Shown in pieces: positions 55,513-58,179 of a stretch of 64,000 nucleotides of DNA. The notes below the pieces were generated by a model. The model was not told the DNA's origin. It ran no database searches and saw nothing but the letters and a program-made list of their open reading frames with translations. Source of the DNA: Prosthecobacter sp. (GTDB lineage: Bacteria > Verrucomicrobiota > Verrucomicrobiia > Verrucomicrobiales > Verrucomicrobiaceae); contig JAIPJY010000011.1 in NCBI GenBank assembly GCA_021733925.1, positions 84,756 through 148,755 on the forward strand, given 5' to 3'. Position numbers and translations under genes: made by a program. How positions within the stretch are numbered: the stretch's first letter is position 1; each line of letters begins with the position of its first letter.

Positions 55513-58179
55513 TCATTGCATCATCGCCTGCGCCTTTTCCGCCACCACCGCCTCGTCCCGAAATACCGCCAGAGCCGGACGCAACAGCTGCGGATCTTCG
55601 TCCAGCGTACGTTCGGCCAGCTGCCGCGCCAGGCGCACCAGCCGCGTATCTGCCAGCAGTTCTCCAAACAGCAGGGGGGCCTGCCCGCTCTGCGCATGGC
55701 CCAGCACATCCCCCGGACCACGCCGCCGCAGGTCTTCCTCGGCGATCTGAAAGCCATCGCTCGTTTCCTCCATGATCGCCAGCCGCTGGCGGTTTTCCTC
55801 GTCCTTATCGTCCACAAAAAGCACGCAGTAGCTCGTATTCTCCCCACGGCCGATGCGGCCCCGCAGCTGATGCAACTGCGCCAGCCCGAAGCGGCCCGCG
55901 TCATGAATGAACATCACCGTCGCATTGGGTACGTCGATCCCCACTTCGATCACCGTGGTCGAAACCAGCGCGTCCAGCTTGCCCGCACGGAAGCGTTTCA
56001 TCACCTCTTCCTTCTCCTCCGCGCTCATCCGGCCATGCAGCAGCCCCACCTCGCACGGTGCAAGCAGCTTGGACCACTCCTCGTGTCCCTTCGTCGCCGC
56101 GCCAGCATCCAGTTTTTCCGATTCATCGATCAGCGCATAGACAATGTACCCCTGCCGGCCCTCCTCGATCTGCTCCCGCAGAAATTTCGCCGCATCCTTC
56201 AGCTTGGTCTTCGGCCTCACTTTCGTAATGATCTTCACCCCATCGCGGGGCTTCTGGTCGATCGTGGAGACCTCCAGATCCCCGTAGATCGTCAGCGTCA
56301 GCGTGCGTGGAATCGGCGTGGCCGTCATCACCAGCACATCCGGCGTATCCCCTTTGCGGATCAGCTTCGCCCGCTGCGCCACGCCAAACTTATGCTGCTC
56401 ATCAATGACGACGATCCCCGTGTTGTGCATCAGCTCCGCGTCATGCAGCAGCGCATGCGTGCCAATGACGATTTCCGGGCCACGCACGGCAGGAGCGCAC
56501 GCGTCCCGCGTGCTGTGCTCTGCGTCTCGCGGAGCACCGTCCCCAGAGCTCCATGACCAAGGATAATCTTCCTCCGGTCCCACCAGCCCCGCCTCCATCG
56601 GGTTACCGAAGATGTACTCAAACTTTTCCCGCAAGTCCGCCTCCGAACGGATCAGCCGGTCAAACGACTCTTTCTCCCACACCCTCCCGTCCGGCCAGCC
56701 AGCCTTCACAATCTCATGCGCAGTGAAGGATTTGAGCGAATGCAAGATGTCCGTCAGTTTGTGAAACACCGGTGCATCGGTTCCCGGCTCGCTTTCGCAA
56801 ATCGCCGGTTCAATAAGCATGTGCACATGTTCGGGCATCACGCACACCGCATACAAATGGTAGCGATTCCCGTGAAAATGCCGGACCGCATCCAGCACAA
56901 TCTTCCGCGCATGTTCAGGCAGCTCACGGCGCGCCGCAGTACTAAAAGTGATGAAATACTTCGCCCAAGGACGCTCAAAGTGCGGCAGTCGTCTGCGGGA
57001 GTAGCGAGTTTCTTGCGGGGACGCTGGGTGCGTTTCCCGCGAGACGCGGGAAACAGCACGCGAGACGCGTGCGCTCCTCTCGATCAGTTCCATCCCATCC
57101 CCATCCTCCCGCTTCGATCCCGTGCGCAGCGCCACGCGCAGGCCCAGCGGCTCCAGCCACTTGCGTGCATTGCGCGCATGCTGCTCGGCCAGAATCTGCG
57201 TCGGCGCCATCAGGACCGCCTGCCTGCCTGATTCAACTGCGCGCAGCATCGCGGCAAAGGCCACCACCGTTTTACCGCTGCCCACATCGCCATGCAGCAG
57301 GCGGTTCATCGGATTGCCCGAGGCCATGTCACGATGAATTTCATCCAGACAACGCTGCTGTGCCGTGGTGAGCTGAAACGGCAGCTCGTTGAAAAAGTCC
57401 CGCAGCAATTCGCCCGTGCCCACCTGCTTGCGCCCGCCAGATTCGATCACCCGCCGCTTCCGCCGTGCCACCCGCAACTGGTAGCCGTAGAACTCCTGAA
57501 GCGCGAGGTAGCGCCGCGCCTGCTCCAGTTTTTCCATGCTGGCAGGGAAATGCACCTCCCTCAGCGCTTTGGAACGCGATAAACCCGCAAACTCCCCTTC
57601 CCCGCTCGGTGCTGGCAGCAGATCTTCAATAAACGACTCTGGCAGCACCTGCATCACATGCCAGGCCGCCACGCGCAGCGCCTTCTGCGTCATCGCCCCT
57701 TTAAGCCGGTAGATCGGCGTGATGCGCCCCGTGTGAATCTGCCCCGCATCATCATCCGCGCCGCCTTTGACGATCTCATACTCGGGATGCGCCATGCTCA
57801 GGCGGCCCTTCGTGTCCTTGATGATGCCATAGACGATCAGTTCCTGCCCCTCCGCCAGCACCCGGCTCATGAACGGCATGTTCCACCACTTCAGCGTGAG
57901 CTGCTGCCCCAGCAGCCCCGTCGCGTGCCGTACCACCGCCTCAAACACGCCAGCCCTGCCGAAAAACTTGTTCCCCGTCTTCGTGATCAACACGTGATGA
58001 CACGTCGGCAACAGCCCCGCCTGAAACGCCAGCGCCTGCATCTGCCTCCGGTCCTCATGCCGGGATGGCATCAGAGAGACTACATCCGCCACCGTCTTCA
58101 CCCCCTCCTTGCCCAGCAGCCGCGCCGCATGCGCAGGCATGCCGGGAACTTCAGCGAGGGATAGGTCGAGTGGGATCAC
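55513..58179 (-). CDS. recG: ATP-dependent DNA helicase RecG with in-frame RAYT insertion
   Basis: 888-aa open frame. RecG unwinds stalled forks and Holliday junctions; usual length is about 690, matching this protein minus an insert of roughly 197 residues. Normal RecG parts: wedge/OB domain (1-265), Walker A GDVGSGKT (297-304), MAPTQILAEQHA, RTGSKREDG, then after the insert GPEIVIGTHALL, DEQH box (593-596), TATPIPRTL and the TRCF-like C terminus ending KAQAMMQ. The insert (about 369-566) encodes a REP-associated tyrosine transposase, between helicase motifs Ia and II. The frame is not broken, so the fused protein could be made; activity is uncertain. Confidence 0.9.
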   Translation of the reverse strand: MIPLDLSLAEVPGMPAHAARLLGKEGVKTVADVVSLMPSRHEDRRQMQALAFQAGLLPTCHHVLITKTGNKFFGRAGVFEAVVRHATGLLGQQLTLKWWNMPFMSRVLAEGQELIVYGIIKDTKGRLSMAHPEYEIVKGGADDDAGQIHTGRITPIYRLKGAMTQKALRVAAWHVMQVLPESFIEDLLPAPSGEGEFAGLSRSKALREVHFPASMEKLEQARRYLALQEFYGYQLRVARRKRRVIESGGRKQVGTGELLRDFFNELPFQLTTAQQRCLDEIHRDMASGNPMNRLLHGDVGSGKTVVAFAAMLRAVESGRQAVLMAPTQILAEQHARNARKWLEPLGLRVALRTGSKREDGDGMELIERSARVSRAVSRVSRETHPASPQETRYSRRRLPHFERPWAKYFITFSTAARRELPEHARKIVLDAVRHFHGNRYHLYAVCVMPEHVHMLIEPAICESEPGTDAPVFHKLTDILHSLKSFTAHEIVKAGWPDGRVWEKESFDRLIRSEADLREKFEYIFGNPMEAGLVGPEEDYPWSWSSGDGAPRDAEHSTRDACAPAVRGPEIVIGTHALLHDAELMHNTGIVVIDEQHKFGVAQRAKLIRKGDTPDVLVMTATPIPRTLTLTIYGDLEVSTIDQKPRDGVKIITKVRPKTKLKDAAKFLREQIEEGRQGYIVYALIDESEKLDAGAATKGHEEWSKLLAPCEVGLLHGRMSAEEKEEVMKRFRAGKLDALVSTTVIEVGIDVPNATVMFIHDAGRFGLAQLHQLRGRIGRGENTSYCVLFVDDKDEENRQRLAIMEETSDGFQIAEEDLRRRGPGDVLGHAQSGQAPLLFGELLADTRLVRLARQLAERTLDEDPQLLRPALAVFRDEAVVAEKAQAMMQ
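56492..56537 (-). repeat. REP element, left end of the RAYT insertion
   Basis: Two adjacent hairpins: GCACGCG-tcc-CGCGTGC (56497-56513) and GTGCTCtGCG-tct-CGCgGAGCAC (56515-56537, one G-T pair). Its first 25 bp are the inverted copy of the right end with one mismatch. Confidence 0.85.
57032..57077 (-). repeat. REP element, right end of the RAYT insertion
   Basis: Two adjacent hairpins: GTTTCCCGCG-aga-CGCGGGAAAC (57032-57054, perfect 10-bp stem) and GCACGCG-aga-CGCGTGC (57056-57072), followed by GCTCC. Inverted relative to the left element; terminal 25 bp match with one difference. Confidence 0.85.

Follow-up and report, generated by a model that had tools for sequence, protein, structure and literature searches.

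A REP-flanked RAYT transposase in frame within recG of Prosthecobacter and the occurrence of its relatives inside host genes

RAYT transposases (TnpAREP) and their flanking REPs together make up REPtrons, and the transposase is usually encoded as a gene of its own, a feature that is not part of the RAYT definition. Inteins are in-frame elements that occupy fixed sites in essential enzymes and have a patchy distribution. Palindromic repeats lying in frame within genes have been described as Rickettsia palindromic elements and as intragenic REPs (PMC3733652 and PMC10969869, each consulted in part), and the Rickettsia elements were reviewed in the consulted part of PMC10969869. According to the same parts of these two sources, many intragenic REPs are found in DNA repair genes and some in tRNA synthetases, and Rickettsia conorii is also among those with the highest numbers of intragenic palindromic repeats. 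In the consulted part of PMC3733652, GTAG repeats were most numerous in Opitutus terrae, a verrucomicrobium, and the peptides encoded by intragenic REPs were short (20-30, at most 82 aa). For TnpAREP subclass 2.4, the consulted part of PMC6006769 describes REPs inserted inside tnpAREP genes with the frame preserved; over-long TnpAY1 proteins were discarded there as fusions or annotation errors.

The window analysed here is a stretch of 64,000 nucleotides from the genome of a Prosthecobacter sp. (7.3 Mb, 127 contigs, 93% complete). One gene on its minus strand forms a single frame of 888 codons with a GTG start and no internal stop, and its features are listed in Table 1. The wedge, the helicase domains and domain 3 of RecG were all present in the protein, with the Pfam families RecG wedge, DEAD, Helicase_C and RecG domain 3 flanking an insert on its two sides, and the NCBIfam RecG model NF008168 scored 739.9 bits (cut-off 718). 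When compared with Thermotoga RecG (1gm5) by phmmer, residues 11-356 and 569-856 were aligned and the insert was left unaligned. This insert is a RAYT of 195 residues, located in the RecG loop between motif Ia and GTHAL, 3' of APTQILAEQ (from residue 325) and 5' of GTHALL and DEQH.

Table 1. Features of the interrupted recG gene in window coordinates
Feature	Position	Strand	Basis or remark
recG frame with internal RAYT (888 codons + stop)	55513..58179	-	frame + Pfam/NCBIfam
RecG N-terminal part, with wedge domain	57079..58179	-	Pfam, phmmer
Walker A	57291-57268	-	in RecG N-terminal part
APTQILAEQ / motif Ia	57207-57181	-	in RecG N-terminal part
REP, insert 5' end	57032..57078	-	GGAG tag 57077-57074 and two hairpins; read as (R)SARVSRAVSRVSRET
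RAYT core domain (residues 391-543)	56551..57009	-	HMM, NCBIfam
EHVH, with HUH motif HVH	56821..56832	-	HVH = residues 451-453
Presumed catalytic tyrosine, in YIFGNP	56614..56616	-	residue 522, nt 56616
REP, insert 3' end, inverted	56491..56537	+	GGAG tag 56492-56495 and two hairpins
RecG C-terminal part, with helicase domain 2 and RecG domain 3	55513..56490	-	
GTHALL (residue 573)	56463-56446	-	in RecG C-terminal part
DEQH (residue 593)	56403-56392	-	in RecG C-terminal part

The inserted domain was matched at residues 400-542 by NF047646 (REP_Tyr_transpos; E 2.5e-21, 76.1 bits with a cut-off of 80) over profile positions 4-146 of 146. Pfam Y1_Tnp gave 14.6 bits only, below its cut-off of 23, and the nearest solved sequence was E. 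coli TnpArep (4er8, E 0.0029). AlphaFold was weak for the insert in a model of the whole protein (ten-residue means of 37-73 over residues 411-500) and poor when the insert was modelled alone (51.5 overall, 4 sequences); a fold search with the latter model returned no match at E 0.001, and the assignment of a Y1 fold therefore rests on sequence.

Inverted repeats of 42 nt that are 88% complementary (56491-56532 and 57037-57078) flank the insert. On the strand that carries the GGAG tag, each end consists of the tag followed by two hairpins with 3-nt loops, and both ends fold more stably than shuffled sequence (z -4.0 and -5.0). The REP motif occurs twice in the window (0.01 expected). The REP hairpins, in protein reading, supply the terminal residues of the insert (SARVSRAVSRVS..., ...RDAEHSTRDACAP), the 3' REP being read on the minus strand as about RDAEHSTRDACAP. 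A sequence-only reading of this DNA had reported a RAYT inside recG with the 888-residue frame unbroken, intact HUH and catalytic tyrosine motifs, bounding inverted REP hairpins, a position in a loop between motifs Ia and II and no start codon of its own; the features above confirm this description, and in eight of the nine congeneric recG copies described below the first 28 insert codons contain no in-frame ATG, GTG or TTG. In the ninth (G015) there is no in-frame start between repeat and core.

The element is like a REPtron in its HUH and Y...NP motifs, in its inverted REP ends with tag tetranucleotide and hairpins, and in having REP copies elsewhere in the genome. It differs in its compact N-terminal part (judged by eye) and in that its members are internal domains of host enzymes, none of the 50 described below being a free-standing gene. 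Palindromic repeats in frame within genes are shared with the Rickettsia elements and intragenic REPs, which, as presented in the consulted part of PMC3733652, lack a transposase, whereas a whole transposase is in frame here. Rickettsia palindromic elements are short and without transposase; the present insert encodes a transposase domain. Frame-preserving insertion is likewise shared with TnpAREP subclass 2.4, with the nesting reversed (PMC6006769, consulted part). The likeness to inteins lies in the in-frame residence at fixed enzyme sites and the patchy distribution, and the difference in that no splicing domain was detected and the element is apparently retained in the protein.

In the genus, a single recG match was obtained from each of 47 of the 48 congeneric genomes, G009 being the one without any. 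The gene was read across the insertion site in 45 genomes, excluding the fragments in G006 and G021, and a RAYT was present in nine, in frame every time, and absent from 36. The nine inserts are 62-100% identical to that of the window, and the other RAYT matches listed reach at most 51%. With all candidates scored, this RAYT was seen once in each of the nine genomes, which gives no sign of recent copying. The sequence-only reading had named a frameshift or misassembly at the junctions, or a second intact recG with the present copy unexpressed, as findings that would refute it. There was no frameshift, the same in-frame insert was found in eight congeneric species besides that of the window, and no second recG was found in the window's genome at its 93% completeness, in which the other helicase-like matches (36 and 42% identity) fall in one 1091-aa frame on contig C47 that we take to be mfd. 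Y1_Tnp matches in the same genome numbered 35 at E up to 1, some being two pieces of one gene, and all except the recG match lie in frames of at most 404 codons. REP copies outside recG averaged 6.2 in the nine insert genomes versus 1.15 in the 39 others (p 0.0011, in a test that ignores kinship). No pair of filled and empty recG genes with otherwise identical flanks was found. One of the 36 genes counted as lacking the RAYT (L168, G047:C718) has the left REP only, in frame and followed by host sequence, and is likely the scar of a lost RAYT.

Relatives were searched with the insert as query in a phylum scan (E 1e-22, 387 genomes) and a class scan (E 1e-20, 384 genomes), with the best 8 or fewer first-look candidates per genome being scored in each; free-standing members could have escaped both scans for this reason. 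At least 10 matches were found in 10 of the 387 genomes, all 10 in frames of 730-1479 codons, and at least 49 in 39 of the 384 genomes, all 49 in stop-free frames of 698-1513 codons. Host genes were identified by blastp against reference pieces together with inspection by eye, Pfam was used to check nine representatives covering all loci, and the short matches of one reference piece (MetH_C2), which held part of a RAYT, were disregarded. The hosts of the 49 class matches were AlaRS (21, of which 17 at one loop and 4 at another), RecG (14), ThrRS (5), MetH (4), IspG (2) and, by eye only, one each of a PglX-like protein, a PLD/DEAD helicase and a DUF1156-type methylase.

An HMM built from the nine genus recG inserts recovered 50 near full-length domains at 146.8 bits or more, the next match being partial at 80.4 bits. 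These 50 comprise 43 of the class matches, six further genus recG genes and G122; of the class matches not included, five fall outside the group and one is cut by a contig end. The sequence-only reading had thus seen a single instance of what are at least 50. Every one of the 50 is located within a host frame of at least 698 codons (AlaRS 22, RecG 20, ThrRS 5, MetH 3), and no member with a gene of its own was among those found. In a midpoint-rooted tree, for which two weak domains (L138, L011) of 94 had been dropped beforehand, the 50 are set apart by a branch of length 1.09 with support 100. On the other side are 42 RAYT domains, a comparison set chosen partly for long frames, of which 30 occupy ordinary short frames and the remaining 12 host frames. 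Host labels cluster on this tree (23 changes for 16 labels; minimum 15, shuffles 54.8), and starred branches force at least four changes for AlaRS and at least two for ThrRS, from which it follows that the element has at times switched genes.

The anatomy seen in the window recurs throughout the group. The HUH motif and Y...NP with a single presumed catalytic tyrosine are present in all 50 members. The 19 RecG copies with a recognised upstream anchor all have the insert in the same interval before GTHAL, and 11 recG genes of other families carry it in the same loop and frame. An inverted-repeat score of at least 18 was obtained for 47 of the 50, with no clear repeat in three, and the median of 32 compares with 12.75 when the same flanks are scored in direct orientation and with 15 when flanks are cross-paired; because related elements have REPs in common, only 26 of the 50 lie above the 95th percentile of the cross-paired flanks. 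Tags were read by eye as GGAG, GTAG or GTGG. Between left repeat and core, 31 of the 50 have no ATG, GTG or TTG. In the other 19 a GTG or TTG is present in frame, accompanied in one case by an ATG, so that these 19 may have an internal start.

Selection was estimated over the 36 pairs of the nine genus copies. Median dN/dS was 0.19 and 0.09 in the N and C parts of RecG (34 and 33 pairs usable), 0.10 in the RAYT core (20 pairs usable, the rest saturated) and 0.51 in the ends (36 pairs), where synonymous divergence was low (pS 0.08-0.49 vs 0.36-0.87 in the core). The RAYT core is under protein constraint; the ends, which are short, may be constrained as DNA. That the arrangement is an assembly error or a decaying pseudogene, an explanation to which the MAG origin of the named insert records (L070-L072) lends some colour, is scarcely credible and in effect refuted by independent genomes: the loop and frame are shared by nine congeneric species and by recG genes of other families, G582, which is listed with one contig, has the insert in alaS, and dN/dS is well below 1 on both RecG and RAYT core.

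Fifteen genomes were scanned for the AlaRS family. The 14 genomes tested that have an interrupted alaS show no other alaS, and in the fifteenth (G653) alaS is uninterrupted and RAYTs are elsewhere. AlaRS is indispensable, and the interrupted enzyme therefore presumably works; by analogy, RecG would be functional with its insert as well. One alaS frame of 1398 codons (L271, G490:C141) holds two RAYTs of the group.

A working enzyme would also be obtained if the insert were spliced out as an intein or intron, and the fixed sites in important enzymes do recall inteins, with essential hosts escaping harm. Removal before function is nevertheless very improbable, as no intein or intron family was found: neither the window protein (E up to 0.1) nor nine hosts (E up to 1e-5) matched a Hint/intein family in Pfam, and Rfam returned no group I or II intron around the insert (E up to 1). 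An insert spliced from RNA, moreover, need not keep the host frame.

The sequence-only reading had offered two interpretations, a transposase-helicase fusion and a mobile element that hitch-hikes on host translation. In the former, a domesticated RAYT would be kept for the benefit of the host, for example because its link with RecG would bring ssDNA nicking or REP binding to stalled forks. The constraint on the core, the close tracking of RecG distances by insert distances (r 0.95), the share of RecG among the hosts (20 of 50) and the single copy per genus genome are in line with such a role. The same group is, however, also found in AlaRS, ThrRS and MetH, 36 of 45 congeneric recG genes do without the domain, and the REP ends, not obviously needed for host function, are retained; domestication thus appears unlikely, and this half of the earlier interpretation is weakened. 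The hitch-hiking half fits better, all found members of the group being inside host genes. We consider it likely that the insert is a mobile REP/RAYT element that resides in host genes, is translated within them and is not spliced out.

The history of the element in recG was examined on a RecG tree of 48 rows with the loop left out. Insert state changes eight times on this tree, six of the changes being forced by starred branches, and its scatter is close to random (shuffled mean 8.6; 166 of 500 shuffles as low). Such scattered presence is at odds with simple descent. A single gain would require 20 losses, which is many for an element supposedly shielded by its host gene and counts against the hitch-hiker reading. 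Among the nine genus copies, insert distances follow RecG distances (r 0.946, p 5e-5), and on the RAYT tree these copies form one cluster (support 99) whose main split is that of RecG, which makes recent lateral spread unlikely. A better fit would be an old insert that was lost repeatedly, or alleles exchanged between relatives. The left flank of G015, which reads LRTGSKREDGG... versus LLTSQ... in its sisters, may be a conversion tract.

Recent homing between species was considered for the genus copies and is unsupported, given this correlation of distances and a synonymous divergence that is higher in the RAYT core than in flanking RecG (0.93 versus 0.53 and 0.64 for G000-G012; 0.50 versus 0.27 and 0.24 for G018-G037). 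A virus, phage or plasmid as vector was likewise rejected: no relative was confirmed in the viral contigs scanned, phages gave no match at E 1e-5, and five of 72,556 plasmid records matched at 27-34% identity, annotated 'transposase'.

For the preferred mobile element, a mechanism can be proposed. A compact Y1 (HUH) transposase and the two inverted REP ends between which it lies form one open frame, mostly without a start of its own. When the element lands in the sense direction, in frame and in a tolerant loop of an important enzyme (in RecG, motif Ia-GTHAL), the host protein would acquire an extra domain of about 195 residues and bring the transposase with it, and would be expected to remain folded and functional. 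As inexact loss would disrupt a gene that the cell needs, the element would tend to be shielded, and losing it would require an in-frame deletion or a swap for an allele without the insert. The transposase presumably acts on single-stranded REP DNA, where its cleavage activity would rarely move the element itself and would move short REP copies in trans.

In-frame REPs in genes have been published and a RAYT with REPs is of a known kind; what is new is the residence of all found members of the group in host genes. No report of a RAYT inside a host gene, or of a RAYT lineage confined to host genes, was found in the largely open-access main texts searched, and the consulted part of PMC3733652 makes no mention of RAYT genes inside host genes. 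We lean, with some reserve, towards a new class of mobile elements: transposons whose sole form is an internal domain read in frame with an essential enzyme and whose REP ends double as DNA recognition sites and protein linkers, with translation by the host gene only and with protection by host essentiality, like inteins without splicing.

Transposases are expected to own a start and to damage the genes that they enter. Here a class-wide lineage appears to have dropped independent expression and to persist in RecG, AlaRS, ThrRS and MetH, and its in-gene residence suggests a mobile element surviving through translation within needed proteins. This makes the maintenance of long-lived RAYTs testable and points to protein loops that can house an entire catalytic domain. 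Such elements will be overlooked where annotation and family surveys drop over-long proteins.

Outside the group of 50, the 12 in-frame RAYTs of the tree, five of which are also among the 49 class matches, reside in IspG (2), an ADH-GFO/IDH fusion (2), a GT4-like glycosyltransferase (3), ClpB (1), an HmaA-like helicase (1) and, by eye, a PglX-like protein, a PLD/DEAD helicase and a DUF1156-type methylase. In the clpB gene (L136, G018:C6:98663) a distinct RAYT lies in frame ahead of the second AAA domain, and the clpB of sister genome G037, 97% identical to it, has none. In the ADH-GFO/IDH fusions of two species (L142, L143) the RAYT separates the two enzyme domains and is flanked on either side by REP-coded peptides, and in three species (L171, L172, L173) the N-terminal part of a GT4-like glycosyltransferase contains an in-frame RAYT. 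A defence helicase (L229, G404:C83; PADLOC HmaA, 1645 bits) has a RAYT in frame together with several GSAGVPPAS-type peptides, also in frame and REP-coded by eye.

Within the window, Rfam gave a match to the Yersinia sRNA Ysr141 antisense to recG (57100-57359, plus strand; E 3.3e-10), which at 44 bits is far below the gathering score of 196 and probably reflects merely recG conservation. Elsewhere in the window's own genome, a REP without transposase is in frame in a gene with a frame of at least 667 codons (L178, G000:C10:6756), with a second, inverted REP and an FG-GAP/dehydrogenase-like protein recognised by eye. A REP pair is in frame in a methylase-like gene (by eye; L179, G000:C27:1297), and a third REP pair (L180) lies between open frames.
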